The notes under the pieces: model-generated
The model's input: only the letters and a program-made list of their open reading frames with translations
What the model was told of the DNA's origin: nothing
Databases searched by the model: none
Virus record (IMG/VR): IMGVR_UViG_3300032820_000091
Coordinates: 1-27,113 of that record
From: a virus
DNA length: 27,113 nt
Direction: 5' to 3' (one strand)
Program-made: the position numbers and the translations under genes
Shown here: piece by piece, positions 11,517 to 26,121 of the stretch
Layout: the number at the start of each line of letters is the position of its first letter
How positions within the stretch are numbered: position 1 is the first letter of the stretch

Positions 11517-12142
11517 AATAAATCTCCATTGTTTTTAATATTTAGAGGTAACATAAAAGTGTTTTTTGTAAATGAGGCGTCTACAGGATCATGTGTTGCC
11601 ATAAGTATAGTTTTTCCGTGATCTTGATTTAATGTGTGCAATAATTGTAGAATTTTAATTGCCATGTCTTTATCGAGGTTAGTAGTTGGTTCATCACAAA
11701 CCAAAATCTGTGGGTCAGTAACCAATGCTCGTGCAATGGATGTCCTTTGTTGTTGTTCGAGTGAAAGTTGTGATACTTGTTGTTCTGATTCGTCTAATAG
11801 ATTGACTATGTTTAAGACTCTTTCCACATGTTCCTTTCGTTGTGAGTTAGAAAGTTTTGATAACAATAATGGTATCTGAACATTACGAAATACTGATAAA
11901 GTTGGTAATAAATTATAAAACTGAAAAAGAAAACCAACATCGCCATCTACTTTAATACTTCCTGAGGTTGGTGTATCTAAGCCTCCTATCAAATTAAGGA
12001 GTGAAGACTTACCTGATTGTTTCGGCCCCATAATAGAAAGAAAATCTCCCTTCGAAACTTCTAGGTTTAAATTATTTAATGCAACAATTGTCTCATCACC
12101 TCTTTGATAAGATTTGTTGACATCTTTAAGTGCTACTATCAT
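11513..12142 (-). CDS. LolD/MacB-like ABC ATPase with degenerate signature motif
   Basis: A 209-residue stand-alone ABC nucleotide-binding domain. Walker A GPKQSGKSS (residues 39-47) is followed by GGLDTPTSG, a hallmark of the LolD/MacB/FtsE group. The Q-loop is Q74 in FLFQFYNLLP, Walker B ILVCDE is at 146-151, the D-loop NLD at 155-157 and the switch histidine H184 in MATHD. The signature that should read LSGGQ is LSLEQ (126-130), so both glycines that cradle ATP gamma-phosphate across the dimer are lost. Walker A also lacks the usual inner glycine (KQSGK instead of SGSGK). No permease is encoded nearby, so any membrane partner would be a host protein. It overlaps the preceding gene by 17 nt. 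Confidence 0.88.
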   Translation of the reverse strand: MIVALKDVNKSYQRGDETIVALNNLNLEVSKGDFLSIMGPKQSGKSSLLNLIGGLDTPTSGSIKVDGDVGFLFQFYNLLPTLSVFRNVQIPLLLSKLSNSQRKEHVERVLNIVNLLDESEQQVSQLSLEQQQRTSIARALVTDPQILVCDEPTTNLDKDMAIKILQLLHTLNQDHGKTILMATHDPVDASFTKNTFMLPLNIKNNGDLL

Positions 12143-13709
12143 TTTGGTAGAGCTCTTTGATCTTATTGTAAGTCTCTAAGTTTGCTATATTTGTGTAATC
12201 CATATTATCGATCCATGGGCCACCTCTAGTGTAATGGATACCTGAGAAGTCCCACTTTACATCAGGATCATCATATCCTTCGGTGAAAACATATTTTTCA
12301 GGTATTTTACTAATCTTATCCGTCCATTCAAACTGATGCAACTGTTTACCTGTCCATGCATTTACTGCCTCAGGTGTTAATTTCTTACAATCTTCATGTC
12401 CGTTATTAAAGAACATCAGACTAGACCACAATTTACACGGATAATCAATGTTGACTTCTCCATCAAACTTTGTTTCTTCGTGTTCATAGTGTGGGTATTG
12501 TATACATGCAATTGCATCATCAGGATCAAGAAAATAGAACATTGTTAATGGTGTTTGTTGAAAAAGGATATCATCATCAACAAACATACTGAACCCTTCA
12601 TAATTTTCTAGGTATGGGATGAGGAATCTACTATAAGTAAACCAAGTAGATTGATTTGCGTATGGTCTATTATACTCGGAAATTTTATCCACGTCAAGAT
12701 ACTTGATCTCAGGATTAAACTTTGTATACTTAGCCCCATATCCTGAGCTCCAAGATTTTTCTACTGCTTTTTCTATGGAATATTTGGTGACCTTTTCTAT
12801 ATCGTTGTGAGTTTTATCTACTCCAATATAAATGTTTAATGGTTTCTTTTTAGATAATTGTGTTAGTTTTCGATTGAATTCCCAAACTAAAGGTCGAAAT
12901 TCAGTGGTATTTGCAAAATCACTGTGCATTTCCAATACACCACCAATCCAAGAAAATGATAAATTTAAACCCTGATCTCTTTTTTCTAATTTGTCTTTCC
13001 AAAAATTTAACAAATCATCCAGTTCAACTGGTTCTGAATCTATTATCTCGAAAGCATCAAAGACTACAAGTTCAAATGAAGGGTCATCCATTTCTTCAAA
13101 AACTAATGATCTGATACTGCCGGGATGGATCATCATTTGATAACCTTCACCCTGTTTTAAAACTACTCCTTGTATTGGAGCCCACAATCCTTCCTTTGTT
13201 ACACTGTTTATAATCCAATGTGCTTTAGCTGAATGATAATAAGAAGACTCCAAATCATTTTTCATTTTAGGTTCGAGAAAAAGACCTTCTTTCATATTAG
13301 GTGGGATGGTTCTTATATCAATGTGTTCATCATTTACATCTTTTGTTCCAAATCCACTATGACCCACTACTACATCTTCTTCCTTTTCTTCTGAAGTGTA
13401 ACAGTGTCTTAAAAAAGAATGATAAACACTAGAATTCCATTTTAAACCATAGAAGGATGAAAACTTTTTTGATTTTCTATCGTCTAAGAATTCACCCCAA
13501 TTAACAATTTTACAAGGTGGTAAACAATTGTCCCAAACGTATTTTAAAATTTTATAACTAGGTTGTTCAGTATAATCTTTATCAAGTTGAAGTCCACCAA
13601 GATGAAACATATGTTCATCGTTAGTTCGTTCTTCAAAGTATTTGTAGTTTTGATCCCAAACGATTTTTGGAATTAATTGACAGTGTTCAATAGTCTTGAT
13701 TTTAATCAT
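12126..13709 (-). CDS. Probable glycosyltransferase with unusual N-terminal domain
   Basis: A 527-residue two-part protein. The C-terminal part (about 290-515) looks like a GT8-type or related GT-A glycosyltransferase: a Rossmann-like start LNIYIGVDKTHND, then FTYSRFLIPYLENYEGFSMFVDDDILF with the metal-binding acidic run DDD at 378-380, and a late HYTRGGPWID motif. The N-terminal part contains AHWIINSVTKEGLWAPIQGVV and MMIHPGSIRSLVFE (about 163-205), which recalls the ParB/sulfiredoxin-like pattern of a helix, an invariant GxxxP step and an HPGxxR loop; this is only a resemblance. The start lies 26 nt after the DUF6356-like gene. A poor late box, ACTAAATA, occurs at 13737-13744, and no Shine-Dalgarno sequence is obvious. 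Confidence 0.7.
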   Translation of the reverse strand: MIKIKTIEHCQLIPKIVWDQNYKYFEERTNDEHMFHLGGLQLDKDYTEQPSYKILKYVWDNCLPPCKIVNWGEFLDDRKSKKFSSFYGLKWNSSVYHSFLRHCYTSEEKEEDVVVGHSGFGTKDVNDEHIDIRTIPPNMKEGLFLEPKMKNDLESSYYHSAKAHWIINSVTKEGLWAPIQGVVLKQGEGYQMMIHPGSIRSLVFEEMDDPSFELVVFDAFEIIDSEPVELDDLLNFWKDKLEKRDQGLNLSFSWIGGVLEMHSDFANTTEFRPLVWEFNRKLTQLSKKKPLNIYIGVDKTHNDIEKVTKYSIEKAVEKSWSSGYGAKYTKFNPEIKYLDVDKISEYNRPYANQSTWFTYSRFLIPYLENYEGFSMFVDDDILFQQTPLTMFYFLDPDDAIACIQYPHYEHEETKFDGEVNIDYPCKLWSSLMFFNNGHEDCKKLTPEAVNAWTGKQLHQFEWTDKISKIPEKYVFTEGYDDPDVKWDFSGIHYTRGGPWIDNMDYTNIANLETYNKIKELYQNDSST

Positions 13710-13735: not shown

Positions 13736-13954
13736 TTATTTAGTTGTTCTTTCTTTGATATGTTTTTGGAGTGAATCCAATCCCTCACAGAGATTGTTCC
13801 AAAAAATACAAGGAATTAAAGCATGTATAAGAACTCCTAAAGAAAGTATAAGAAGTCTTAAAGAATAATATGATGCGTGATATAAATGAGTGAAATAACT
13901 CTCATCGATTTCTTTAAGATGTTTTGTGTTTAGATATTTAGACCTGATTGACAC
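13736..13954 (-). CDS. Small DUF6356-like membrane protein
   Basis: About 72 residues from a GTG at 13954. The segment KEIDESYFTHLYHASYYSLRLLILSLGVLIHALIPCIF has the ESYxxHL, Tyr/Ser-rich and LLIHAxIPF pattern of DUF6356, a family of small one-pass membrane proteins widespread in marine phages and bacteria; function unknown. The start is uncertain. The only in-frame ATG (14008) lies 52 nt inside the preceding repeat-protein gene and adds Cys-rich sequence that does not look like the family. GTG 13954 overlaps by a few bases but has no clear ribosome binding site. Family members usually start near the HLKEI motif, where no standard start codon exists here. Confidence 0.65.
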   Translation of the reverse strand: MSIRSKYLNTKHLKEIDESYFTHLYHASYYSLRLLILSLGVLIHALIPCIFWNNLCEGLDSLQKHIKERTTK

Positions 13955-13956
13955 AT

Positions 13957-14979
13957 CTATGATGTTACAGGTGTTGCAGGCCACTGTTGTGCTAAGACAC
14001 CATCCCATCTTGAAACAGGAGTTCTACCTTGTCTTGCATATGTGCCTGGCTGTCTATTACTATATGTGTCAGGTGTTTGTCCTTGTCTTGCATATGTGCC
14101 TGGCTGTCTGTTCTGATAAGTGAATGGAGTTTGACCTTGACGTGCATAAGTGCCTGGCTGTCTGTTTTGATAAGTCGTAGGTGTTTGACCCTGACGTGCA
14201 TAAGTAGACGGATTCCTATGTTGATAAGTCGTAGGTGTTTGACCTTGACGTGCATAAGTTGAAGGTTGTCTATTATTATATGTGGTAGGTGTTTGACCCT
14301 GACGTGCATAAGTAGACGGATTCCTATGTTGATAGGTAGACGGTGATCTAGCATTAGCAATATAAGGTGTTTGGTTATTTACTGGTGTTCGATATGTGCC
14401 TGGCTGTCTGTTACTATATGTACTTGGTGATCTTGCTTGTCCAATTACTGGTGACTGTGCATTTCTTGGTGATCTTGCCTGATAACTTGATGGCTGTCTG
14501 TTACTATAAGTGGACGGTGTTTGTCTAGCTGCAATATATGGGTTCTGACCACTTACAGGATTCCTATAGGTAAATGGACTCCTATTCTGATAAGTGAACG
14601 GTGCTTGTGCATTTGCGATATATGGAGTCTGATTATTTACTGGATTCCTATAAGTGCCAGGCTGTCTATTACTGTAAGTAGTTGGTTGTCTTGCCTGATA
14701 AGTAGACGGTGATCTAAATGCGTAAGTGAATGGTGTTCTAAAAGAATAAGTGAATGGTGTTCTAAAAGAATAGGTATACGGTGTTCTAAAAGAATAAGTG
14801 AACGGTGATCTAAAAGAATAGGTAAACGGTGTTCTTGCATTATAGGTAAACGGTGTTCTATAAGCATACGTCTGTGGAGTTCTTGCTTGTCTTGCATAGG
14901 TAAACGGCGTTCTATAAGAATAGGTAGACGGCGATTGACCATCTCTTATGTGAGGTGCTTGTGTTTGTCCAATGGCCAT
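13957..14979 (-). CDS. Octapeptide-repeat protein, fibre-like (repeat only)
   Basis: A 340-residue protein built almost entirely from about 36 short repeats, mostly eight residues, of the form x-P-x-T-Y-x-x-R (for example TPFTYSFR, QPGTYARQ). Some units are lengthened to ten residues by GQ (ARQGQ) or to twelve by NPVNNQ, and a few are of the PYIANAQ type. The N-terminal 14 residues (MAIGQTQAPHIRDG) and the last 12 (RWDGVLAQQWPATPVTS region) are unique. It has no signal peptide, membrane segment or enzyme motif. The regular spacing of Pro, Tyr and Arg suggests an extended beta-structured shaft, by inference only. It lies 11 nt after the Hint-bearing repeat gene 14991-16598, and the two share perfect DNA repeats. 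I know of no named family. Confidence 0.9.
   Translation of the reverse strand: MAIGQTQAPHIRDGQSPSTYSYRTPFTYARQARTPQTYAYRTPFTYNARTPFTYSFRSPFTYSFRTPYTYSFRTPFTYSFRTPFTYAFRSPSTYQARQPTTYSNRQPGTYRNPVNNQTPYIANAQAPFTYQNRSPFTYRNPVSGQNPYIAARQTPSTYSNRQPSSYQARSPRNAQSPVIGQARSPSTYSNRQPGTYRTPVNNQTPYIANARSPSTYQHRNPSTYARQGQTPTTYNNRQPSTYARQGQTPTTYQHRNPSTYARQGQTPTTYQNRQPGTYARQGQTPFTYQNRQPGTYARQGQTPDTYSNRQPGTYARQGRTPVSRWDGVLAQQWPATPVTS
14393..14436 (-). repeat. 44-nt perfect repeat, copy A
   Basis: Identical to 15820-15863; codes part of the ARSPSTYSNRQPGTY unit pair. Confidence 0.93.
14605..14667 (-). repeat. 63-nt perfect repeat, copy A
   Basis: Identical base for base to 16032-16094 and in the same reading frame (codes the QPGTYRNPVNNQ-PYIANAQ unit pair). 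Identity at synonymous positions implies recent duplication or gene conversion. Confidence 0.95.
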
Positions 14980-14990
14980 CTCAGTCTATC

Positions 14991-15470
14991 CTATTTCTTA
15001 AACATGTTATGAACTAACACGCCATTTGCAAAATATGTTTCAGTATCGTTAACCGAAGCTATATTATATGTGGTTGACAGTTCTTCTTGTGGTGTTACTG
15101 AATCAACAGTAACATTCTGTTCGTATAGAGAGAATATTTCATCTCCGACTTTTACTTCACCATGCATTTCTAGGTGTTCAGGTGTAATTCCTTCATCAAC
15201 TTCTTTTTGCCATTCATCTTCTTTTAAATATTTCCAACCTTCAGCAGTGTGTAATGGATGTCCACCACTAATTTCAAGTGTCTTACCATTTGATAATCCA
15301 ACATCAAAAAGTTGAACATTTTCTCTTGGTGTCATCATTTCCATTACAGTTGAAGGAACAAGTGTATTTGTAGTTACATCAAATGTCATTACTGTCATTC
15401 CAGCTTTAACTTCTGATATTGCCATTAATTGATTGTTTGCTAATTGAATCTGAGTCTCAGCACTAAAGCA
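14991..15470 (-). other. Hint domain region of the 14991-16598 protein
   Basis: It encodes residues 377-535. The Cys codon is at 15468-15470. Conserved features seen are Cys1, a MTVMTFD turn, the HPLHTAEGW block and terminal VHN. It resembles bacterial intein-like or hog domains more than a homing-endonuclease intein; no endonuclease insert is present. Confidence 0.85.
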
Positions 15471-16598
15471 ACCACCACCACCGTATTGATAAACCTGAGG
15501 AACCCTGTGTTGATAAGTAAATGGACTTCTTACATTACCAATGTTTGGAGCTCTTGCACTAGCAATATATGGATAAGTTGCTTGTGTGTTTCCAATTACT
15601 GGTGATCTTGCATTAGCAATATATGGTTGTCTTGCATTACCAATGTTTGGAGCTCTCGCATTACCAATTAACGGTTGTCTTGCATTACCAATGTTTGGTG
15701 ACCTTGCATTACCAATGTTTGGTGACCTTGCATTACCAATTGTTGGATTCTGCCTGGCTGCAATGTATGGATTTTGTCTGCTTGCAATGTATGGAGTCTG
15801 ATTATTTACTGGATTCCTGTATGTGCCTGGCTGTCTGTTACTATATGTACTTGGTGATCTTGCATTTGCTATGTAAGGTTGTTGACCATTTACAGGACTT
15901 CTATAGGTAAACGGTTGTCTATTCTGATAAGTAGACGGTGTTCTACGTTGTGCTATGTAAGGACTCTGTGCAGACGCAATATAAGGTAATTGATATGTAG
16001 ACGGATTCCTATGTTGATATGTAAATGGTGATTGTGCATTTGCGATATATGGAGTCTGATTATTTACTGGATTCCTATAAGTGCCAGGCTGTCTGTTACT
16101 ATAGGTGGACGGTGTTTGTGCATTCGCAATAACAGGTGATTGGGCATTAGCAATATAAGGATATGCATTTTGCCTGTTCGCTATGTAAGGACTCTGTGCA
16201 GACGCAATATAAGGATATGCATTCTGCCTGTTTGCGATAACAGGTGACTGTGCATTTGCTATATATGGATATGCATTTTGTCTAGCTGCAATATATGGTG
16301 TTTGATTATTTGCAATATACGGATATGGTTGTTGTGCATCTGCAATATATGGTGTTTGACTATTCGCAATATATGGATATGCATTCTGTCTATTCGCAAT
16401 ATAAGGTGTTTGAGATGCCGCAATATATGGATATGGATTTTGAGTTAATGCTTGACCCGATGCATTGTTCCACCCAGCAGGTGTTTTAATGTATATTTGG
16501 TCTACTGCTTTCCATGTAGATGCAGCTGTCTTTACCCAAGCTCCTTGGGTAGAATTCCATCCACTAGGTGTTTTAACCTTTTGATTACCTGATACCAT
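14991..16598 (-). CDS. Octapeptide-repeat protein with C-terminal Hint domain
   Basis: A 535-residue protein in three parts. Residues 1-50 (KVKTPSGWNSTQGAWVKTAASTWKAVDQIYIKTPAGWN) form a short Trp-rich module like those of phage fibre proteins. Residues 51-372 carry about 37 repeats: 8-mers such as TPYIANRQ or SPNIGNAR, 10-mers NAYPYIANAQ, and xPxTYxxR units. After GGGG, residues 377-535 form a Hint (hedgehog/intein) domain: catalytic Cys377 in CFSAETQIQL, block-B His in GGHPLHTAEGW, and the C-terminal block ETYFANGVLVHN followed by only MFKK. There is no Cys/Ser/Thr after HN, so splicing is not expected; N-S acyl shift and cleavage before Cys377 are. GGAG lies 12 nt before the ATG, rather far. 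Confidence 0.9.
   Translation of the reverse strand: MVSGNQKVKTPSGWNSTQGAWVKTAASTWKAVDQIYIKTPAGWNNASGQALTQNPYPYIAASQTPYIANRQNAYPYIANSQTPYIADAQQPYPYIANNQTPYIAARQNAYPYIANAQSPVIANRQNAYPYIASAQSPYIANRQNAYPYIANAQSPVIANAQTPSTYSNRQPGTYRNPVNNQTPYIANAQSPFTYQHRNPSTYQLPYIASAQSPYIAQRRTPSTYQNRQPFTYRSPVNGQQPYIANARSPSTYSNRQPGTYRNPVNNQTPYIASRQNPYIAARQNPTIGNARSPNIGNARSPNIGNARQPLIGNARAPNIGNARQPYIANARSPVIGNTQATYPYIASARAPNIGNVRSPFTYQHRVPQVYQYGGGGCFSAETQIQLANNQLMAISEVKAGMTVMTFDVTTNTLVPSTVMEMMTPRENVQLFDVGLSNGKTLEISGGHPLHTAEGWKYLKEDEWQKEVDEGITPEHLEMHGEVKVGDEIFSLYEQNVTVDSVTPQEELSTTYNIASVNDTETYFANGVLVHNMFKK
15820..15863 (-). repeat. 44-nt perfect repeat, copy B
   Basis: Second copy of 14393-14436, in the Hint-bearing gene; same orientation and reading frame. 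Confidence 0.93.
16032..16094 (-). repeat. 63-nt perfect repeat, copy B
   Basis: Second copy of the 63-nt sequence at 14605-14667, in the neighbouring Hint-bearing gene. A direct repeat, 1427 nt apart; recombination between copies would fuse the two genes in frame. Confidence 0.95.
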
Positions 16599-16622
16599 TT
16601 ACGGTTCCATCTCCAATATTTT

Positions 16623-16656
16623 AAAAAACACTATACCCTTAGAGATTAAGAGTATA
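16623..16656 (-). terminator. Factor-independent terminator overlapping a stop codon
   Basis: On the minus strand TATACTCTTA pairs with TAAGGGTATA over 10 bp with one G-U pair and a 5-nt loop, followed after GTG by six T. The stop codon of the 685-residue fibre gene lies partly in the loop. It would separate that gene from the repeat/Hint cassette downstream. Confidence 0.6.
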
Positions 16657-18703
16657 ATATCCACAAGTCACCAACTGCTCCATCTCCACCGCCTGGCGCA
16701 GAGGTTGATTGATAAACATTTCTCGCTGTTCCACCTGAGTTAGACGCATTCGTAATAGTTAATGCACCTGTTGAGACTGCAACAGGAGCAATGGTTAGAT
16801 TTCCTGTTGATGCACCAGTAGCTGTAGTTGTTCCGAATACGAAACCATCTGCTGATTCATCCCATGCCATTATGGCATTGTTACCTGTTGATCCTCTTTC
16901 AATAACGATACCTGAGTCATTTGCGTTTGATCCAGCTCCGTTATTAAGTTCTATCAAATTATCTGAAACCACTGTGTTTGTGGTTCCTACGGTAGTTGTT
17001 GTTCCGTTAACAGTTAAGTCACCTGAAAGTATTAAGTCAGCAAATGTAACGTCTGAGGATGTTGCTACGGCCTGTCCGATACTAAATGCACCACCTGAGT
17101 AAGTTACACCAGTTCCAGCACTTAAGTGTGCTCTTGTTTCTGCTGCACTTCCACCTGTGTAAGTAATTACACCTGATGTTGAGTTGTATGCAAGTGAACC
17201 ATCTCCACCTGCGTCTGTGACACTTACTGCAGCTCTTGCTCTCGCAGTCGTGTGATATAAGTTACCACTTTCTCCAATATCTCCTGTGTCTAATGTTATA
17301 TTTGCTGTTCCATCGAAAGACACACCTGATATTGTTCTTGCAGTTGCCAATGCTGTGGCAGTGGCTGCGTTTCCTGTAGTAGATTGGTTAAGAGTTCCAA
17401 CTGTGAAATCGACTGTGCCATCTCCGTCCTGATATGCAACGGTAATACCTGATTCGGTATTACTTGTAAACATTGCACCAACTGTATCTTGAATCTCTTC
17501 TGTTAAGGAAATGTTTCCTGTTCCATCAAATGATACACCATGGATTGTTCTTGCATTTGCTAAAGCAGTTGCAGTTGCCGCTAGTGTAGCAGTCGCTGCT
17601 AGTCCACTAGTTGCCTGATTACCTGCTGCGTTAACGCCTGGCAAGTTAATGTTGGCAGTACCATCAAATGATACCCCACCAATTGTTCTTGCTGTTGCTA
17701 AAGCCGTTGCTGTAGCTGCATTTCCTGTTGTACTTTGGTTAAGTGTTCCGATAACGAAATCGAGGGTATTATCTGAGTCTTCGTATGTAACTGCTATATT
17801 CGTCTCGGTGTTTGATCCTACCATCGCACCGACTGTATCTGCTATGAATTCTGCTGTGACTGCAAGGTCTATTGTGCCATCGCCGTCCTGATATGTCGCT
17901 GTAATTCCTGTTTCAGTATTACCAGTAAACATAGCACCTGCTATGTCTTGAACTCTTTCTGTTGTATGATAAAGATTAGTCCCTTCTGTCAAAGCAGTTG
18001 TATTTGCTAGAACTGTTCCACCTAATGATGTTGCAACTCCACCAATTGTCATCTGACTGTTTGCTAGTTTTGCATTTGAAATTGAACCTGCTAACATGGC
18101 ATCTGTAACACCAGCAGCTTTAACTCTTAGTGCATCTGAATTTATTTCTATTGAACTACCATCAACACCAACTGCAAGTGTTATTGCACCTGAAGTTCCA
18201 CCACCTGTTAAACCATCACCTGCTGTGATACCTGTTAAGTCAGCAGTTGAAGATAAAACACCACCTGATGCAGTTAAATTTGTTCCTGCCATTCCAGCTA
18301 CTAAGTCTACAATGGATTCTTTTCTTGATGCATTACTGTCGTTTGCATCAATAATTGCAATACTGTCAGTGGAAACACTGACTGCAGCTGCTGTTAATTC
18401 GTTTAAGTCTAGTGCAACTGTAACATCACCTGCTGTTCCACCACCTGATATACCATCTCCAGCGACAACACTTGATATGTCACCTGTTTCGGCATCTCTT
18501 GTAATTGTTAGTGTTCCAGCACCGTCATTATAAGATAATGATACACCTGATCCTGCGGTTAATAGAGTATTGACTTGATCATCAATTGCCTCTTTCGCTG
18601 CTGTTCCAAATGCTGCTGCGGTTAAATCTCCTGATGAATCTAATACATCAGCAGTTCCTACTGAAAGACCATTCTTTACTATAAAATTCTTTTCGCCTGC
18701 CAT
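16646..18703 (-). CDS. Tail-fibre-like structural protein with internal repeats
   Basis: A 685-residue Gly/Thr/Ala/Ser-rich protein of phage-fibre style. Repeated elements include GDGISGGGTAGDVTVAL / GDGLTGGGTSGAITLAV near residues 85-180, three copies of an AxATALAxARTIxGVSFDGTxNI unit between about 330 and 480, and three of an Q/IAD-x-GAMxxxNTExxI-xYxDxDxT unit alternating with them. The C-terminal third has FADLILSGDLTVNGTTTTVGTTNTVVSDNLIELNNG, a common fibre module, ending SAPGGGDGAVGDLWILYS. The N-terminus (KNFIVKNGLSVGTADVL) resembles the 84-residue gene just upstream, whose stop overlaps this ATG (TAATG). Probably a virion fibre; which fibre cannot be told. Confidence 0.85.
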   Translation of the reverse strand: MAGEKNFIVKNGLSVGTADVLDSSGDLTAAAFGTAAKEAIDDQVNTLLTAGSGVSLSYNDGAGTLTITRDAETGDISSVVAGDGISGGGTAGDVTVALDLNELTAAAVSVSTDSIAIIDANDSNASRKESIVDLVAGMAGTNLTASGGVLSSTADLTGITAGDGLTGGGTSGAITLAVGVDGSSIEINSDALRVKAAGVTDAMLAGSISNAKLANSQMTIGGVATSLGGTVLANTTALTEGTNLYHTTERVQDIAGAMFTGNTETGITATYQDGDGTIDLAVTAEFIADTVGAMVGSNTETNIAVTYEDSDNTLDFVIGTLNQSTTGNAATATALATARTIGGVSFDGTANINLPGVNAAGNQATSGLAATATLAATATALANARTIHGVSFDGTGNISLTEEIQDTVGAMFTSNTESGITVAYQDGDGTVDFTVGTLNQSTTGNAATATALATARTISGVSFDGTANITLDTGDIGESGNLYHTTARARAAVSVTDAGGDGSLAYNSTSGVITYTGGSAAETRAHLSAGTGVTYSGGAFSIGQAVATSSDVTFADLILSGDLTVNGTTTTVGTTNTVVSDNLIELNNGAGSNANDSGIVIERGSTGNNAIMAWDESADGFVFGTTTATGASTGNLTIAPVAVSTGALTITNASNSGGTARNVYQSTSAPGGGDGAVGDLWILYS
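17295..17750 (-). repeat. Internal repeats in the 685-residue fibre gene
   Basis: Three related coding blocks (about 17300-17395, 17515-17585 and 17650-17750) each encode the AxATALAxARTIxGVSFDGTxNI unit. Two of them are followed by closely similar GTLNQSTTGNA sequence. Confidence 0.75.
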
Positions 18704-18957
18704 TAGAATGTGCCTCCGTTAACTGTTGCAAGTGTAAATACACCTGATGTTGAATTATATGCAAGGTCACCACCCGCTGCTACGGATAATGCTGCCCTAC
18801 CTCTTGCGTTGGTAAAGAATAGATTTGTTGATCCTTCAGTGATATTATCTGATGTTAAAACACTCAATGCAGATGCAGAAAGTTTTCCAGCACTTGAGAT
18901 AATTTCTGTTGAACCAACCGTTAAACCATATTCTATTACGAAATTATTTGTTGCCAT
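18703..18957 (-). CDS. Short fibre module protein with GGTF C-terminus
   Basis: An 84-residue protein. MATNNFVIEYGLTVGSTEIISSAGKLSASAL is the same N-terminal module as in the 685-residue fibre protein; NLFFTNARGRAALSVAAGGDLAYNSTSGVFTLA matches the internal fibre unit (NLYHTTARARAAVSVTDAGGDGSLAYNSTSGVITYT) of that protein. It ends VNGGTF, a C-terminus shared with two other genes here. It could be a separate small subunit, or a remnant of a once longer fibre. AGGACAC precedes the ATG, and an exact late promoter lies about 45 nt of leader upstream. Confidence 0.8.
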   Translation of the reverse strand: MATNNFVIEYGLTVGSTEIISSAGKLSASALSVLTSDNITEGSTNLFFTNARGRAALSVAAGGDLAYNSTSGVFTLATVNGGTF

Positions 18958-19007
18958 TTTGGTGTCCTATTTGTTGTTCCTTGGGTCGGTTAGTAGTTTT
19001 ATACTGG

Positions 19008-19015
19008 TATTTATA
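19008..19015 (-). promoter_or_regulatory. T4-type late promoter within fibre cluster
   Basis: Exact TATAAATA on the minus strand in the 86-nt gap before the 84-residue gene. Predicted +1 is near 19002. Confidence 0.82.
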
Positions 19016-19043
19016 GAATGTTAACTCTACAAACAACTTTTTT

Positions 19044-19871
19044 TTAAACAACTATTAAAGTTTTTTTAAATTTAAAAACAGTAGAGTTATTAGAAGCAGG
19101 AGTTATCCTAACTCTTAAATTTCCACTGTCCACATCTACTGCGAAAGTAGCAAGTTCTGAACCAGTCAGAACTGTTCCATACTGTGAAATACTTGGAGTA
19201 GTTCCATTATGTAAAACCATCAACTCAGTGCTTTGATATGCAGTTCCAGTTGCATCACTTATTTGCACTTGGTAGTGTCCACTTCTATACGATGCTATCG
19301 CGAATGTAGATAAATTGGTTGCACTTGTTGAGGTTGTAGTCACTGTTTCAGTTGTAACGCCTCCTGTGTCTTCAAAAGTTAATGTTCCACTTCCATTCGT
19401 GGTTAAAACTTGACCATCTGTTCCATCTGATGTAGGATAAGATATACTTGCACCTGTTAAACTGTTTGTTGCAGTAAGTGTAGTTGCAGTTAAATCACCC
19501 ACTTGTAAATCTGCGAGTGTATATCCTGTTCCACCTAGATTAACTGTAGTAGTTGGTTCAGCTTCTAATCCTTCAAATAACTTCCATGTAGAATCTGATG
19601 CATCTCTAAACAGACCTGTGAACTCTGATGCACCACCATCTGATAATCCATCATCATAATTTCCGTATATACCAATGTCTATTGTATCTGAACCTGTATT
19701 TCCTTTTGCAAGCTCAATCATAGAGTCTGCAACGGATGTAGTTGTGGATTCTACTGTTACAGAAGACCCATTTACAGTTAGATTTCCAGTAATAGTCGTA
19801 TTACCGTCAACTTGAAGGTCTCCAGCTGTCTGTTCTCCTAAATCTGTATAAAACTTTGCTTTGGTTGCCAT
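19044..19871 (-). CDS. Modular fibre/structural protein with shared C-terminal domain
   Basis: A 275-residue protein. The N-terminal half carries common fibre motifs ([28 protein letters not shown], then DSMIELAKGN, FTGLFRDASDSTWKLFEGL, and DGTDGQVLTTNGSGTLTFED). The last 90-100 residues, with SYRSGHYQVQISDATGTAYQSTELMVLHNGTTPSISQYGTVL and LATFAVDVDSGNLRVRITP, form a domain shared with the two upstream genes at 19958-20368 and 20386-21213. No Shine-Dalgarno sequence is seen; an AATAAATA box lies exactly 5 nt before the ATG, behind a strong terminator at 19910-19936. Confidence 0.85.
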   Translation of the reverse strand: MATKAKFYTDLGEQTAGDLQVDGNTTITGNLTVNGSSVTVESTTTSVADSMIELAKGNTGSDTIDIGIYGNYDDGLSDGGASEFTGLFRDASDSTWKLFEGLEAEPTTTVNLGGTGYTLADLQVGDLTATTLTATNSLTGASISYPTSDGTDGQVLTTNGSGTLTFEDTGGVTTETVTTTSTSATNLSTFAIASYRSGHYQVQISDATGTAYQSTELMVLHNGTTPSISQYGTVLTGSELATFAVDVDSGNLRVRITPASNNSTVFKFKKTLIVV

Positions 19872-19876
19872 ATATC

Positions 19877-19884
19877 TATTTATT
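19877..19884 (-). promoter_or_regulatory. Late-promoter-like box AATAAATA, 5 nt before ATG
   Basis: One mismatch to TATAAATA on the minus strand. Predicted +1 coincides with the ATG at 19871. It sits immediately after a terminator, so a promoter is needed here for the downstream gene to be expressed strongly. Confidence 0.5.
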
Positions 19885-19909
19885 ATAAAAGTGGGTTCGA
19901 GTGGGCGAG

Positions 19910-19936
19910 AAAAAAAAGAGGGGCCGAAGCCCCTCT
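19910..19936 (-). terminator. Strong factor-independent terminator
   Basis: On the minus strand a perfect 8-bp stem AGAGGGGC/GCCCCTCT closes a UUCG tetraloop (cUUCGg, extra stable) and runs straight into seven T. It lies 21 nt after the stop codon of the 136-residue gene. Confidence 0.93.
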
Positions 19937-19957
19937 AAAAGTAGTTTTTACAAAACT

Positions 19958-20368
19958 TTATGCATCCACCACTGTTCGGTCAAATTGGATATTTGTTGCT
20001 GTTGCGGAAGATGGAGTACATCTAAGACGTACATTACTTCCTGATATATCAGCATCAAAAGTAGCCAAACTTGAGTTTTTCAGTGTTCCGTATTGCGTAA
20101 GCGTTACATTCGTTCCGTCATGAACCAACATAATTTCAGTGCTATGATAATCCGTTCCTTTGGACATTGCAACAATATAACGAGCAGCTCTAAAACTAGC
20201 ATGTGCAAATGTGTCTAAACTAAACACAGTTGTAGCTGTTCTTTGAGTGTCATCTCGTTTATTGTTCTTGTCTTCCATTCTTTTAGATGTTGTAACAACA
20301 TCATTGGTAGAATCATACTGAAAGTGTCGGATAAGTTCTGCAATTCTAAAAGCATTTGTTATAGCCAT
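19958..20368 (-). CDS. Small structural protein with shared C-terminal domain
   Basis: A 136-residue protein. Its C-terminal 90 residues (SFRAARYIVAMSKGTDYHSTEIMLVHDGTNVTLTQYGTL, LATFDADISGSNVRLRCTP) are paralogous to the ends of the two flanking 275-residue proteins. The N-terminal 50 residues (FRIAELIRHFQYDSTNDVVTTSKRMEDKNNKRDD) are polar and unlike its neighbours. It has AGGAAG before the ATG, lies 17 nt after the upstream gene and ends before a strong terminator. A minimal, nearly stand-alone version of the shared domain. Confidence 0.82.
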   Translation of the reverse strand: MAITNAFRIAELIRHFQYDSTNDVVTTSKRMEDKNNKRDDTQRTATTVFSLDTFAHASFRAARYIVAMSKGTDYHSTEIMLVHDGTNVTLTQYGTLKNSSLATFDADISGSNVRLRCTPSSATATNIQFDRTVVDA

Positions 20369-20385
20369 TGTTTCTTCCTATCCCC

Positions 20386-21213
20386 CTATGTTAATCTAAT
20401 TTGAAAAGTTTGAAAATCTGTGTTAGTATTAGTAGGTGTTACGAGTAATCTCATATTCCCACTATTAACATCAGAGCTTAATGTAAATAAACTAGCAGTC
20501 GTATATGCATCCCCATATTGGGTATAATATGCGTTGGTAGCGTTGTTTACGAGCAATACTTCAGCAGAGTGTGTTCCGGCAGAAGCGTGATCAGCCATGA
20601 TCACATACTTGATTGCCTTATTCGCAACTGCATTGGCTGACAATACTTGGTTAGCCGTAGTAGCTGTTAGCGATGTATTAGTGAAGTAACCTTGAACAAG
20701 GTTAGCTGCAGCTGTTATCGCAACAATTTCTATGACATCACCACTAAGGGCATTTTCCGCCAGCGTGATGGTTGAACTATTGGTAGCAGTATAATCACTG
20801 CCGCCTCCGACCAACTTTACACCGTTGATATAGACCTGTTCTGATCCAGCAGTGTAAGATAAGGAATTTGAATCGTCATCATTACCAGTAACAACCGTTA
20901 AGGTTGATCCTATGGTATATGTGTATGTTTCAACTCCCGAATTTGGTTGATCTGTCCAAGCCAAAGTTCCTGACCCATTGGTCTTTAGAATTTGGTTGGA
21001 AGAACCATCCGCAGTAGGAAAAGTTATAGCGTCGTTTATTGTCAATGAAGCAGGATTTGAACCTATCTCTGAAACTGCTGCCGAGCCGTCATTCTTCTCG
21101 GTATACATCCTACCGTGGTAGGTGTTTATAGCAATTTCGCCAAGTGATAAATCACCTGTGCCAGGCACTGCGTTTTGTGTCGCACTCCTTTTAAATTGAA
21201 CTAAAGTTGCCAT
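20386..21213 (-). CDS. Modular fibre protein with gp34-like N-terminal motif and shared C-terminal domain
   Basis: A 275-residue protein. MATLVQFKRSATQNAVPGTGDLSLGEIAINTYHGRMYTEKNDGS is the widespread phage fibre N-terminal motif (QxKRS...PxxxxLxxGExAxNTxxGxxY). ITFPTADGSSNQILKTNGSGTLAWTD is a further common module, and SLSYTAGSEQVYINGVKLVGGGSDYTATNSSTITLAENALSGDVIEIVAI is a small beta domain. The last 90 residues (AIKYVIMADHASAGTHSAEVLLVNNATNAYYTQYGDAY) form the domain shared with the two downstream genes. AGGGGAT precedes the ATG. Confidence 0.85.
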   Translation of the reverse strand: MATLVQFKRSATQNAVPGTGDLSLGEIAINTYHGRMYTEKNDGSAAVSEIGSNPASLTINDAITFPTADGSSNQILKTNGSGTLAWTDQPNSGVETYTYTIGSTLTVVTGNDDDSNSLSYTAGSEQVYINGVKLVGGGSDYTATNSSTITLAENALSGDVIEIVAITAAANLVQGYFTNTSLTATTANQVLSANAVANKAIKYVIMADHASAGTHSAEVLLVNNATNAYYTQYGDAYTTASLFTLSSDVNSGNMRLLVTPTNTNTDFQTFQIRLT

Positions 21214-21245
21214 TTGCTTAATCCCCTGTTAACTTAGATGGTTAA

Positions 21246-22766
21246 TTAAAATGTTCCGCCATCAATGCCAGTTACCGTAACAGCACCTGATGTAACAGTG
21301 AAGTTAGCTGTAGCGAATGATGCAATACCTTTATTGGTAATTGTTGCATCTTCACCAGCAATCGTGATACTTCCATTGGCATTAGTGACATCAATTCCTT
21401 CACCAGCTGTTAAAGTTCCAGCTTGGAAGTCGTTGTTTCCACCATGTCCAATTAATAGTTGACCAGCAGTAGGGTTAGAACCATCGTAACTTCCTAAAGA
21501 ACCCGAAAGTCCTAATGTAGTTGCCGTTATGGCACCTGAGAAAGTTCCTGTTGTTGCTCCCACCGCTCCAAAGGTTACATCACCCGCTGTTCCTGACATG
21601 ACACTTGAAGTGTCTGTTGCATCAGGAATAAAGGTAAATTTACCTGTTGAATCGTCATACCCAAAGAATCCTAGTTTTGCAGCTGAACCGTTATGCCATC
21701 TGAATTGCATACCTCTATCGAGGTTATCATCAGATGCCGGAGCGGTATCGCCACCAACTACGAAAATTGGATCATCGACTGTTACAGTTGTGGAATTAAC
21801 AGTTGTCTGTGTTCCGTTTACTGTAAGGTTGCCTGTTACTGTTAATGCGCCACCGATTGTTACGGCGTCGGGTAATGCCACTGTCAGGGTATTTCCTGAC
21901 ATTGTTGTTACGATTTCATTAGCTGTTCCAGCAATTGTCAATGTTTCACTATCTAAGTCGATTGCACCAGTTCCACTATCACCCGCGATATCTAAGTCTT
22001 CTAATGTTGCAGTTGCTTGGATTTTGTCCAAGATAGCTGCAGATGTCATTATAGACGTATCGTTATCTGCGAAGGCTTCACTGGAAAGTTGTACCATTCC
22101 AGTTGCTAGTTTTGCTAAAGTTACGTTCCCATCCACTATGGCTGCTGTGTCAACTGCATCATTCGCTAGTTTTGCAGCGTTAACTGCATTATTCGCGATT
22201 GTTAAAGCACCACCAGCTGCGATTGTTGCATCGCCTGATAAAGCTTTATTGTCCCAAGAATTGGTTCCATCATAGATTAACACATGTCCACTAGCTGCAC
22301 CTGATATACTTGTATCAGTTGCACCTGCTACTGTGGAAGTTGTGCTTGCCCATGAAAGGGTTCCATTTCCTGCGGTTGATAACACTTGATCCGCTGAGCC
22401 GTCTGCGGAAGGGAGAGTCCATGTGGTACTGGCTGCTAAGGTATTTGCAGCTTTCAGTGCAACGTAGTTTGTTCCGTTGTCTGAATCTTCCATAAGTGAT
22501 ATTGAACCACCTGTGGAAGCCGCATTACCAACTTTTAAGTTGGCAGGCGTTGCTGTTGAACCGTCTATAATATCAGTATAAAACTTACCACCAATCGCTT
22601 GGATTAATGGAGTGGAATTATCTGCTGCTACAGACTCAATAAATAGCTTTGCACTAGCACCCGCGTTTGCACGATCTTCTACATAGGCTAACTCACCTTC
22701 TACTAAATCTGAAGTAGTAGGGGCGGCTAGACCAGTTGATCGCTTAATCTGAATAACTGTTGCCAT
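21246..22766 (-). CDS. Large modular fibre protein with GGTF C-terminus
   Basis: A 506-residue protein. It starts with the fibre motif [33 protein letters not shown], followed by [48 protein letters not shown], a helical INDxxKLA-like stretch ([30 protein letters not shown]), then [40 protein letters not shown] and a [38 protein letters not shown] module well known from marine T4-like fibres. It ends [13 protein letters not shown] precedes the ATG. Its leader, from a late promoter 150 nt upstream, is long and structured. Confidence 0.88.
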
Positions 22767-22909
22767 GATTTTCTCCTAAGAAAATTAATTGATTAATTTA
22801 ATATTATTTTTCGTTTCACTATCCACGAAAAGACTACATTATATATCGAACTATCCTCTCACTATGAGGGTCGGACTCTTCACAAGATTGAGCCCCTTGA
22901 TGTTTTGAT
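22767..22909 (-). promoter_or_regulatory. Structured 143-nt 5' leader of the 506-residue fibre gene
   Basis: The longest gene-free stretch of the window. On the minus strand it can form four successive hairpins: 22873-22895 (GGGCTC/GAGTCC), 22855-22870 (CTCA/TGAG extended by CC/GG), 22808-22831 (TTTTCGT/ACGAAAA) and 22782-22799 (AAATTAAT/ATTAATTT). An unpaired AGGAG (22773-22777) then precedes the ATG. GGATAGT occurs twice. It is not a tRNA by eye and no ORF is convincing. Confidence 0.5.
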
Positions 22910-22914
22910 GTAAG

Positions 22915-22922
22915 TATTTATA
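22915..22922 (-). promoter_or_regulatory. T4-type late promoter before the structured leader
   Basis: Exact TATAAATA on the minus strand, just after the stop codon of the 79-residue gene. Predicted +1 is near 22909. Confidence 0.82.
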
Positions 22923-22925
22923 AAA

Positions 22926-23165
22926 CTAAAATGTTCCACCGTCTATATTTGTAGACGTAATCCATTTATCTGTCGCAGCGTCATAGACAAGCATGCCATC
23001 ATCAGTTTCCGTTATGTTAACGTCTCCTAATTCATTTAGAGATTTACTTGAAATATTGATGTTTGCAGTATTTCCTACTGCGAGTTGTTTTGCACGAATG
23101 TTTCCTGCTCCTGAAACAGTTCCACCAATCGTTGCAACTCTTGATAATGTTCCTTTAATTGCCAT
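22926..23165 (-). CDS. Short fibre-associated protein with GGTF C-terminus
   Basis: A 79-residue protein. MAIKGTLSRVATIGGTVSGAGNIRAKQLAVGNTANI is followed by LNELGDVNITETDDGMLVYDAATDKWIT, the common LxDVDxxxxxDGxxLVYDxxxxKW module of phage fibre proteins, and the C-terminus NIDGGTF. It is 2 nt after the BppU-like gene with GAGG before the ATG, so the two are translationally linked. Confidence 0.82.
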   Translation of the reverse strand: MAIKGTLSRVATIGGTVSGAGNIRAKQLAVGNTANINISSKSLNELGDVNITETDDGMLVYDAATDKWITSTNIDGGTF

Positions 23166-23167
23166 GA

Positions 23168-23503
23168 TTACCTCGTTACGCCCGGCGTTATAATTGCTTG
23201 TCCTTCTACTACTCTCGTAGTGACAGATGTATTCGTGTCTGTTATATTTAGATCGTAAACGTATCTGCCATCTGCCAAGGCCGAAGTTTGCGTATCGGTC
23301 AAGGATAAAGTCACCTGACCACCTACTCCACTTAATGCAGTGGTGAAAGTTGAAGATACAGCTGTTGATGCATAAGTTTTTCTTATTTGTGCCGCAGCCG
23401 TATAACCTGTTAAATCTTGCACATTACCACTGGCATCAGTTACATCTACTGTAATAGTGTAATCTGTTCCTTGGTCTATGAATAAGTTTGCTATAATTGC
23501 CAT
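23168..23503 (-). CDS. Small beta-sandwich protein, BppU N-terminal-like
   Basis: A 111-residue protein. FIDQGTDYTITVDVTDASGNVQDLTGYTAAAQIRKTYASTAVSSTFTT followed by GQVTLSLTDTQTSALADGRYVYDLNITDT and VVEGQAIITPGVTR is the pattern of the small Ig-like domain seen at the N-terminus of phage baseplate upper protein and as free-standing proteins in marine T4-like phages. It probably attaches to or decorates the baseplate or fibres. There is no Shine-Dalgarno sequence; a CATAAATA box lies exactly 5 nt before the ATG. Confidence 0.82.
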   Translation of the reverse strand: MAIIANLFIDQGTDYTITVDVTDASGNVQDLTGYTAAAQIRKTYASTAVSSTFTTALSGVGGQVTLSLTDTQTSALADGRYVYDLNITDTNTSVTTRVVEGQAIITPGVTR

Positions 23504-23508
23504 ACAAC

Positions 23509-23516
23509 TATTTATG
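23509..23516 (-). promoter_or_regulatory. Late-promoter-like box CATAAATA, 5 nt before ATG
   Basis: One mismatch to TATAAATA on the minus strand. Predicted +1 falls on the ATG at 23503. It lies in the 18-nt gap after the repeat-protein gene. Confidence 0.5.
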
Positions 23517-23521
23517 CAACT

Positions 23522-24349
23522 TTAATTCTGATACTGGGCTGTTGGGACTGCTTGATGTATTTTCTTAGGTGTAGTATTATCTTTATTAACAAAAATCTCT
23601 TGTGCCTTAACTACTGCACCACTTTGTTGATGGAGAAATACACCTTTAACTTTTGCAAGAGGCCCGATTGCTCTAGTTGCAATATAAGGAACCTGATAGG
23701 TGAATGGATTCCTGTAAGCATAACCTGTTTGGTATATATTTTGATAAATGAAGGGTTGTCTTGCATTAGCAATATAAGGTTGTTGTGCATTCACTGGATT
23801 CCTGTATGTGCCAGGCTGTCTATGTTGATATGTAAATGGATTCCGTCCTTGAGTTGCATAAGTCTGAGGTTGTCTATGTTGATAACTAGACGGTTGTCTT
23901 GCCTGTGCAATATATGGATAAGGGTTCTGTGCATTAGACGGTTGTCTTGCCTGTGCAATATAGGGATAAGGTTGTTGTGTATTGGCTGTGTTTTGTGCGC
24001 TTGCTATATATGGATATGCATTTTGCCTAGCTGCAATATATGGGTTCTGTGCATTAGCAATATAAGGTGTCTGAGAACTTGCTGGAACTCTTCCAGTATG
24101 TTGATATGTAAATGGAGACTGTGCATTCGCGATGGAAGGTGTCTGTGCATTCACTGGACTCCTATATGCATAGGGTGTTTGACCTTGAGTTGCATAAGTT
24201 GAAGGGACTTGATGTTGATAAGTGGTAGGTGTTTGACCTTGACGTGCATAAGTAGACGGTTGCTGGAAAGCATAAGTTGACGGCTGCTGTGTAGATGCCG
24301 CAGCTTGTGCAATGTAAGGAAATGGCCATGGTTGTTGTTGATTTGGCAT
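23522..24349 (-). CDS. Octapeptide-repeat protein, fibre-like (repeat only, second copy)
   Basis: A 275-residue protein. Residues 9-226 hold about 24 units of the same types as in the 13957-16598 genes (QPSTYARQGQ, NPYIAARQ, NAYPYIASAQ, QPGTYRNPVNAQ). The N-terminus MPNQQQPWPFPYIAQ is Gln/Pro rich. The C-terminal 49 residues (AKVKGVFLHQQSGAVVKAQEIFVNKDN) are a short beta module resembling the N-terminal Trp module of the 14991-16598 protein. It lies 11 nt after the second Hint-bearing gene, and AAGGGAT precedes the ATG. No catalytic motif. Confidence 0.88.
   Translation of the reverse strand: MPNQQQPWPFPYIAQAAASTQQPSTYAFQQPSTYARQGQTPTTYQHQVPSTYATQGQTPYAYRSPVNAQTPSIANAQSPFTYQHTGRVPASSQTPYIANAQNPYIAARQNAYPYIASAQNTANTQQPYPYIAQARQPSNAQNPYPYIAQARQPSSYQHRQPQTYATQGRNPFTYQHRQPGTYRNPVNAQQPYIANARQPFIYQNIYQTGYAYRNPFTYQVPYIATRAIGPLAKVKGVFLHQQSGAVVKAQEIFVNKDNTTPKKIHQAVPTAQYQN
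23672..24325 (-). repeat. Octapeptide-coding repeat array 3
   Basis: About 24 coding units of 24-36 nt, a mixture of xPxTYxxR, PYIANxQ and NAYPYIAxAQ types, interleaved with short SNAQ or ASSQ spacers. Confidence 0.88.
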
Positions 24350-24360
24350 TATATCATCCC

Positions 24361-24807
24361 TTACTTATTATGAACCACATAATTGTTAACAACATATGTA
24401 TCATTCCCTGCTGGAGAATCAGTTACATCCAAATTATATACTATTATATTTTCAGTGGCAGAAGTTAATGTAGTAACTTCTTCATTACTAACAGTTCCAT
24501 CATTAGCAGTTTTAACAACAAAATCACCAATTGCTAATTGTGTTATTCCTAAACTAGGATGTGCTTCTGCAGCTGCAGTTACATCGATAGCTTTCCATCC
24601 AGCAGTTGTTAAGAATGGATGTGCTGGGATTGTTTGTATGTCACCGTTTATAGTATATAAAGTTCTGTCTCTTTGGTTTGTTGCAACTAATTCTATAACT
24701 TCATTGATTACACCATCTTGTCCAATAACTCTGTCACCAACAACCATACTTTCAATATTTTTAGTGGTATTGTTTTCTAAAAGAACTTGTGTGCCAGCTG
24801 GGAAACA
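24361..24807 (-). other. Hint domain region of the 24361-26121 protein
   Basis: It encodes residues 439-586; the catalytic Cys codon is at 24805-24807. No endonuclease insert. It shares the Cys1, HPxxTxxGW and VHN landmarks with the other Hint domain, but sequence identity between the two is low outside them. Confidence 0.85.
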
Positions 24808-26121
24808 AAAAGTGCTTACAAGCCAGCCTTGCACAAATGCATTATGTTTTGAATCCATAGCCAAATCAGGAAATCCTGCTTTTCTAAGTGTAGGAGTCCA
24901 AATCCAATTTAAATCACAAGTTGTTTGTCCATCCTCTTCTTTGTTCATACTTAATCTATGTGTGCAATCATATACACTAAGATGTGTTGTCACAGCATGA
25001 AAAGTATCCATGGCTGCACCACTGTCAGTTTCAGTATGTAAGTATCCACCATTACCTGAATGTGTTTCATTAGTTATCTTAGGATAAGTTGCATCACTTA
25101 TCCACGCAGCTGAATCAGCAAATTTACTCGAACCAACAATCACCTGTGTGGCAATTGTTTTGAACGAAGTGTCTAAATCCACATTTCCAGTTTCATCGTG
25201 AAAAGTATGCACAAGCATTTGATCAAAACTATCGTTTCCTCGTTTTATTTGCCATAAGATTGTTTGCTGTGCTGTTGCACCACTACCACTTATCGTCACG
25301 GCGAGTCGATAAACTAATTCTGCATAAGCATTTACCATGTAACCATTACCTGATGATTTCCAATCCAATGTGGCCATATCCACTGCTGTTGTTGTATTGT
25401 CAGTGTCAAGCACACTGTTAGAAGTAGTGTTTTGATTTGAATATGGTGATTGATATATCGCAGGATTTCTTTCATTTCCAATTAAAGGTGTCCGTGCATT
25501 TGCAATGTAAGGATATGCATTCTGTCTATTTGCAATTATTGGTGACTGTGCATTAGCAATGTAAGGATAAGGTGCTCGTCCAATAAGTGGATTTCTATAG
25601 GTAGTTGGTGTCCTATGTTGATAAGTGCTAGGTTGTCTTGCCTGTCCAATATATGGATAAGGATTTTGATATATGTTAGGTTGTCTATTACTATAGGTAG
25701 ATGGTTGTCTATTCTGATAAGTGGTTGGTGTTTGTCCTTGTCTTGCATAAGTTGTAGGATGTTGATAAGTAACAATTGCTTGTGCCTGTCTTGCATAAGT
25801 GAAAGGATGTTGATAAATAGCAGGTGTTCGACCTTGACGTGCATAAGTGAACGGTGCTTGTGCGTTTGCTATAAATGGTGTTTGACCATTTGCAATATAT
25901 GGATAAGGTTGTTGCGCGTTTGCAATTGTTGGAGTCTGACTACTTACAGGACTTCTATAGGTAAACGGATTCCTATTTGCGTAAGTAAATGGATTTTGTG
26001 AGTTCGCAGGTTGTCTAGCAGGGACTTGTCCCGATACTGGTTGTTGTGCGTTTGCTGGAACCCTTGCAGTGTATTGTTGCTGAAAGGTTGTCCCAGTGTT
26101 TATGTATATATCATCTGCCAT
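24361..26121 (-). CDS. Octapeptide-repeat protein with unknown middle domain and C-terminal Hint domain
   Basis: A 586-residue protein. Residues 18-225 are about 24 repeats (NPFTYANR, TPTIANAQ, QPYPYIANGQ, TPTTYQNR). Residues 226-437 form a folded, non-repetitive domain I do not recognise (LDWKSSGNGYMVNAYAELVYRLAVTISG; SFDQMLVHTFHDETGNVDL; CTHRLSMNKEEDGQTTCDLNWIWTPTLRKAGF). Residues 439-586 are a Hint domain: Cys439 in CFPAGTQVLLENN, a VVGDRVIGQDG turn, the block-B histidine in IPAHPFLTTAGW, and terminal NNYVVHN followed only by Lys. No Cys/Ser/Thr follows HN, so cleavage rather than splicing is expected. The ribosome binding site is poor. It sits 12 nt after the partial gene upstream. Confidence 0.88.
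   Translation of the reverse strand: MADDIYINTGTTFQQQYTARVPANAQQPVSGQVPARQPANSQNPFTYANRNPFTYRSPVSSQTPTIANAQQPYPYIANGQTPFIANAQAPFTYARQGRTPAIYQHPFTYARQAQAIVTYQHPTTYARQGQTPTTYQNRQPSTYSNRQPNIYQNPYPYIGQARQPSTYQHRTPTTYRNPLIGRAPYPYIANAQSPIIANRQNAYPYIANARTPLIGNERNPAIYQSPYSNQNTTSNSVLDTDNTTTAVDMATLDWKSSGNGYMVNAYAELVYRLAVTISGSGATAQQTILWQIKRGNDSFDQMLVHTFHDETGNVDLDTSFKTIATQVIVGSSKFADSAAWISDATYPKITNETHSGNGGYLHTETDSGAAMDTFHAVTTHLSVYDCTHRLSMNKEEDGQTTCDLNWIWTPTLRKAGFPDLAMDSKHNAFVQGWLVSTFCFPAGTQVLLENNTTKNIESMVVGDRVIGQDGVINEVIELVATNQRDRTLYTINGDIQTIPAHPFLTTAGWKAIDVTAAAEAHPSLGITQLAIGDFVVKTANDGTVSNEEVTTLTSATENIIVYNLDVTDSPAGNDTYVVNNYVVHNK
25440..26070 (-). repeat. Octapeptide-coding repeat array 4
   Basis: About 24 coding units of 18-36 nt. 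Near 25730-25850 the units shorten to the 7-residue and 9-residue variants QHPFTYARQ and QHPTTYARQGQ. Confidence 0.88.

Follow-up and report, generated by a model that had tools for sequence, protein, structure and literature searches.

Paired repeat genes around the tail-fibre genes of an uncultured T4-like phage form conserved cassettes with an optional intein-like insert

Introduction

When a gene that ends in a Hint domain is followed by a gene made of repeats only, and this pair occurs twice around the tail-fibre genes of a single phage, is the arrangement a duplicated self-processing system, or has a processing element merely come to rest in otherwise structural genes? The question is raised by a 27,113-bp IMG/VR virus record (IMGVR_UViG_3300032820_000091, analysed whole and hereafter called the window), which holds a T4-like tail region with sheath, terminase, neck and fibre genes. 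An earlier, sequence-only reading had noted the two pairs, and their coordinates, strand and spacing proved exact on rechecking: A1 (26121-24361) is followed by A2 (24349-23522), and B1 (16598-14991) by B2 (14979-13957), all on the minus strand and each time after a gap of 11 nucleotides (nt). We find that the pairing is real and conserved, and that the self-processing element has the character of an optional insert. The genes probably encode two-subunit tail fibres, one subunit carrying an optional, self-excising insert of the bacterial intein-like (BIL) kind.

Results

Relatives were collected by searching with B1, A2 and A1, which yielded 116 loci in 46 clusters; the survey set consisted of 44 uncultured relative records plus the window, and all relatives are metagenomic contigs. 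Of 41 complete cases of B1, 40 had B2 as the next gene (a contig edge cuts the other), and A2 came next in 24 of 26 cases of A1, with two unresolved. A1 and A2 formed a single open reading frame (ORF) in nine further records, B1 and B2 were fused in two contigs (L154 and L158), and the order was swapped, with B2 ahead of B1, in L305, a contig from a metagenome-assembled genome (MAG). Pairing and order, which the sequence-only reading expected to be kept, are thus kept nearly everywhere apart from this swap and some fusions, and relatives with a single gene or an unrelated order, the finding that was to count against it, were not common. The fusions, which occur in sister lineages, suggest that the two products of a pair belong to one structure. 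The common 11-nt gap, by contrast, is a coincidence rather than a signal, because gap lengths vary among relatives (−1 to 13 nt in the A pair; −35 to 65 nt in the B pair, or about 280–330 nt where a small ORF intervenes). A frameshift or readthrough linking B1 to B2 was rejected, as neither gap length nor frame is conserved.

A second search, anchored on the gp13-like neck gene and blind to the repeats, found B1/B2 in 12 of 12 contigs with a neck identity of ≥63% and ≥9 kb of upstream sequence (several being near-duplicates, so that not all are independent), among them L154 and L158 with the fused form, and in 0 of 16 contigs with a neck identity of ≤53%, indicating that the pair is a lineage trait. 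In one contig with a neck identity of 66% and 6 kb upstream (L161), B1/B2 were missing from the usual place. A search for relatives anchored on the gene at 12126-13709 found nothing. Judged by the neck protein, Melnitz, Mosig EXVC030M and HTVC008M are among the closest cultured relatives, at about 50% identity. The only matches in the genome collection, L305 (JAAXIF010000105.1) and L306 (NZWA01000048.1), both lie in Bacteroidota MAGs, a weak hint at the host.

A Hint domain closes both A1 and B1 in the window, as the sequence-only reading had it, and is optional in the relatives. B1 can end in a Hint domain (15 of 41), in a stub rich in Gly, or in a tip of some 90–155 residues, and only 2 of 26 A1 genes carry a Hint. 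Fused A1A2 and B1B2 genes are Hint-free, and no relative record had two Hints; the window alone does. Since most relatives keep both genes of a pair Hint-free (26 of 41 B1; 24 of 26 A1), and the Hint also occurs as an insert in unrelated tail proteins (below), the proposal of one self-processing plus one structural component is not supported. On the core-gene tree, Hint state has changed at least six to seven times, and the tip and B1B2-fusion states have one origin each. The identity of B1 Hints tracks that of core genes (Mantel r = 0.86), which favors mostly vertical descent with losses.

The tips of A1 and B1 are homologous in seven genomes and 87–95% identical within the genome in five of them (L046/L095, L044/L129, L060/L110, L033/L128, and L022/L126). 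Because tips compared across three of those genomes are only 44–59% identical, the tips must be homogenized intragenomically. Where B1 bears a tip, a small ORF of 86–100 amino acids (aa) precedes B2 (L012:10220-10480, L046:9487-9774, L033:9377-9655, and L022:9563-9865), whose product is possibly a tip chaperone.

By profile and by predicted structure, the Hint is a BIL domain. The top profile match was the C. thermocellum BIL 2lwy (E = 5.6e-14). For an AlphaFold2 (AF2) model of the B1 Hint, with a predicted local distance difference test (pLDDT) score mostly of 90–97, Foldseek ranked BIL2 from the BUBL1 locus of T. thermophila first and the C. thermocellum BIL and inteins next. As in A-type BILs, the Hint fold comes with an N-terminal Cys, a block-B His and a C-terminal His-Asn (HN). 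Among 14 aligned Hint domains these residues lie within ten invariant columns, and a ratio of nonsynonymous to synonymous substitution rates (dN/dS) of 0.11–0.25 indicates purifying selection. In B1 the domain spans residues 377–531 (15006-15470; Cys377, His447 of block B, His530 and Asn531), with GGGG directly ahead of Cys1 (15471-15482) and a peptide MFKK, the putative C-extein, behind it (14994-15005). The A1 Hint (residues 439–585, 24367-24807; PF05203, E = 3.6e-9, and alignment) is of a different type, running from C1 to HN and then a single K and the stop codon, without a Gly tract on its N-terminal side; the two are 27% identical. Of two marks of a class 1 intein, one was present: the gpI-like and gpL-like families described below include both occupied and empty alleles of a host gene. 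The other, a nucleophilic Cys, Ser or Thr at +1, was missing from all Hints of the octad-repeat family. A Hedgehog Hog domain, which would combine an N-S shift lacking Asn cyclization with a sterol-recognition region behind the Hint, was rejected, as HN is conserved outside L145 and nothing sizeable follows the Hint. We also encountered viral proteins of 750–910 aa with two or more tandem Hints (L234, L240, L258, L264 and similar).

The surroundings of the Hint resemble an insertion site. Of 26 distinct octad-protein Hints, 24 come after a Gly-containing, mostly Gly-rich stretch, the exceptions being the two A1 copies. All 26 proteins have K or R within the last three residues, and 20 end in K/R as compared to 13.6% of other ORFs, the sequences not being independent. 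Hint-less B1 genes have the same Gly stretch and, in sister lineages, similar peptides (e.g., GGGGG-Hint-GEKK versus PPGGEKE). The Hint profile search also recovered the order Gly tract, Hint and basic peptide in tail proteins of other viruses. In a gpL-like family (phrog_2048; L311–L390), the Hint is present in 10 of 73 contigs, between SSSNTGGG and a K/R-ended peptide. In a lambda gpI-like family (phrog_32), L391 is occupied within a poly-Gly tract and L392 is empty; the two share 96.5% and 95.8% nt identity to the left and right of the insert and end in TRHVVQR and TRHVIQR, respectively. Cutting the insert out and ligating what flanks it would yield a close copy of the empty allele. In B1, the Hint thus has the behavior of a removable insert placed in a Gly linker, and unrelated tail proteins contain such an insert as well. 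In the library searched, no paper on Hint domains in tail proteins was found, and the phage inteins met there sit in enzymes.

All four genes contain Pro/Tyr-rich repeats, and these are far from chance: across the repeat family, Pro-Pro spacings take an even value in 91% of cases, most often 8, 6 or 10 but also 2 and 4. Such spacing points to beta strands with alternating faces rather than to a collagen-like or polyproline structure. The claim that one cassette is a duplicate of the other fared less well. The longest identical DNA between an A gene and a B gene is 23–29 nt, hardly above the 14–26 nt of synonymous-codon shuffles, and the terminal modules of the two pairs, like their Hints, differ, being unlike or only weakly alike; by shared DNA and non-repeat modules, a recent cassette duplication was thus not seen. 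B1 and B2 share 63 identical nt (shuffles at most 29), which, against at most 29 nt between A and B genes, indicates homogenization within the B pair. The reported likeness of the Trp module at the B1 start to the A2 end is weak, at an hhalign probability of 42% over 24 columns.

The remaining features of the locus, all on the minus strand, are as follows. A1 (24361-26121) opens with an N-terminal cap (MADDIYINTG..FQQ) alignable across 35 genomes, and between its repeats and its Hint lies a middle domain of about 200 aa (residues 231–438; 24808-25431) that matches no family. A2 (23522-24349) is repeat-only with a C-terminal module, LAKVKGVF...KIHQAV. The best-conserved portion of B1 (14991-16598) is its N-terminal module (KVKTPxGW..WKAVDQIYIKTPxGW; residues 1–49, 16452-16598), after which come the repeats, the Gly tract, the Hint and the 4-aa C-terminal peptide. 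B2 (13957-14979), again repeat-only, ends in a different module (ARQGRTPxxRWDGxLxQQWPxTP) and in the window contains neither Lys nor Cys. The eight genes said to be enclosed by the pairs were confirmed as eight ORFs (16646-18703, 18703-18957, 19044-19871, 19958-20368, 20386-21213, 21246-22766, 22926-23165 and 23168-23503); several in this block of tail-fibre modules (16646-23503) match tail-fibre or fibre-assembly PHROGs, and the last resembles an L-shaped-fibre-assembly protein.

Beyond B2, an ORF with a DUF6356 match (13736-14008; E = 1.5e-13) starts within the end of B2 in another frame. The conserved block past B2 includes an ABC-transporter ATPase ORF (11513-12142; PF00005, E = 4e-26), which had no match in the loci of about 110 relatives. 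Two 2-oxoglutarate (2OG)-Fe(II) oxygenases (8669-9382 and 10228-10941) were both present in 11 of 11 octad-bearing loci tested and missing from 15 related octad-free loci; their products possibly hydroxylate the prolines of the repeats. A block resembling this oxygenase block also occurs in L161, with B1/B2 not in place.

Discussion

We propose that the two pairs represent conserved cassettes, held at fixed positions around the tail-fibre genes of a marine, T4-like phage lineage, and that each encodes a fibre-like protein with two subunits and a beta structure. Within a cassette, the N-terminal cap would come from the first protein and the C-terminal module from the second, with the first ending in a plastic site that is occupied by a globular tip, by a Hint or by no more than a bare stub of Gly. 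The B1 Hint is lodged in a Gly-rich linker with a short basic peptide right after it, and self-removal is its most likely activity: Cys377 would attack the Gly-Cys bond to form a thioester, cyclization of Asn531 would free the C-terminal peptide, and the freed alpha-amine could then rejoin the Gly tract, giving a protein that resembles the Hint-free relatives. Conservation of both HN and the C-terminal peptide argues for rejoining.

Several observations weigh against this account. According to a review, A-type BILs cleave and do not ligate (PMC7765530), although the same article cites a paper whose title reports splicing by such domains without a +1 nucleophile; in the octad family a +1 Cys, Ser or Thr is never present. 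The association of the Hint with a K/R tail is not significant once corrected on the octad tree (median p = 0.125), and the A1 Hint falls outside the Gly-linker pattern. In L145, the sole exception of its kind, Cys and TxxH remain but the HN motif is gone. Finally, AF2 gave a pLDDT of 30–45 on the repeats, leaving those of B1 unmodelled, and of 34 for A1; because the repeats could not be modelled, the proposed shaft structure is drawn from residue spacing alone.

The most serious alternative, which we consider unlikely though well short of negligible, is that the Hint only cleaves, cutting itself off B1 to leave a Gly-ended fibre subunit, with the peptide past HN lost along with it. BILs without a +1 nucleophile give mainly cleaved products (PMC7664689), Hint-less relatives terminate near the Gly stub, and L145 retains Cys and TxxH without HN. 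However, HN is otherwise invariant, and the basic character of the peptide, unneeded for cleavage, is kept on occupied and empty alleles alike (its sequence too, in the gpI-like pair).

Conjugation of the thioester to an amine has been suggested for BUBL loci. Here an amine on a partner or on a surface molecule would take over the GGGG-Cys thioester, so that the fibre is tethered covalently, in keeping with the BUBL BIL domain being the best structural match and with a Gly tract ahead of Cys that resembles a ubiquitin-like Gly end. We judge this improbable: B2 is Lys-free in 9 of the 14 genomes with a Hint and Cys-free in all, leaving only its N-terminus as acceptor, and most lineages manage without a Hint. 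Because B2 is usually without Lys, Lys-directed ligation of B1 to B2 is unlikely in particular.

Slighter still are the prospects of an obligate self-processing and structural pair duplicated as a unit, as originally read from the sequence. Pairing and order are indeed kept, and both window pairs carry a Hint, but the Hint is missing from most relatives and never found in both pairs elsewhere, and neither the divergent window Hints nor the near-chance DNA sharing between A and B genes fits such a duplication. About as little can be said for the view that the genes only happen to lie in the fibre cluster and encode a product that is secreted or matrix-like; the low-complexity composition and the lack of a cultured homolog would suit it, but the genes lie between fibre and neck genes in every relative examined, and the tip domains, the conserved N-terminal caps and the occurrence of the same insert type in known tail-tip families speak for fibres. 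A polymorphic-toxin-like device releasing a C-terminal effector may be dismissed. In polymorphic toxins, HINT domains do stand ahead of toxin domains (PMC3482391), but HN in the octad family is followed by only 1–29 residues, and neither a toxin nor an immunity gene was seen in the locus.

We tentatively extend the idea of a self-excising insert in two-subunit fibres to a broader proposal, which we regard as possible rather than probable, that short, endonuclease-free BIL inserts in C-terminal Gly linkers splice without a +1 nucleophile and delay the maturation of tail proteins until excision. If true, several unrelated host families would offer natural, testable cases of nucleophile-free protein ligation in virion assembly. 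The natural role of BIL domains has long been unclear, as they lack the usual splicing residue and typically occur within variable proteins; near-identical occupied and empty alleles in three unrelated tail-protein families allow the exact product to be predicted and checked by mass spectrometry. The uncultured T4-like lineage also has a fibre-like family with swappable ends, for which a search of cultured phages gave no match, and the matching of tips between two fibres of one virus bears on host range in the ocean.

Comparison with known systems places these findings as follows. In the cultured-phage collection, searched with the low-complexity filter on, no match was found to P0001, P0003 or the B1 N-terminal module, and the repeat proteins went unmatched in the Methylophilales and Pelagibacter T4-like phages Melnitz, Mosig EXVC030M and HTVC008M; in Melnitz-3, unlike here, the fibre genes directly precede the neck gene. 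The C-terminal triple beta-helix of T4 gp5 shares an eight-residue repeat and even-residue periodicity (a weak Pfam match, E = 0.013, lies below the cut-off), but the consensus here is Pro-centred with Tyr/Ile and Arg/Gln rather than the VxGxxxxx octad of that intertwined trimer, and spacings of 6 and 10 are common. BUBL loci have a ubiquitin-like domain upstream of the BIL, and A1 and B1 gave no Pfam ubiquitin-like match; the phrog_32 (lambda gpI) family has a ubiquitin-like N-domain (PMC1779556), and phrog_32 was matched only in the separate gpI-like proteins. These gpI- and gpL-like tail-tip proteins share the Gly tract-Hint-basic peptide arrangement, although they come from other viruses and show no sequence relation to the octad proteins. 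Class 1 inteins in phage enzymes (TerL in phiCbK, PMC3556154; terL, phoH and nrdA in IBB_35, PMC3322345) likewise show occupied and empty alleles and the residues for the N-S shift and Asn cyclization, but their hosts are conserved enzymes, whereas here an insert of about 150 aa with neither a +1 nucleophile nor an endonuclease sits in a structural tail protein. Closest are the A-type BILs (C. thermocellum BIL 2lwy and Tetrahymena BUBL1 BIL2, 6y75), which have the same Hint fold, Cys1, TxxH-like block B and C-terminal His-Asn and equally lack a +1 Cys/Ser/Thr; what differs is the setting, a Gly linker that lies only a few residues short of the C-terminus of phage tail proteins for which closely related alleles with an empty site exist. 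The novelty is thus the context in which a known kind of domain is found.

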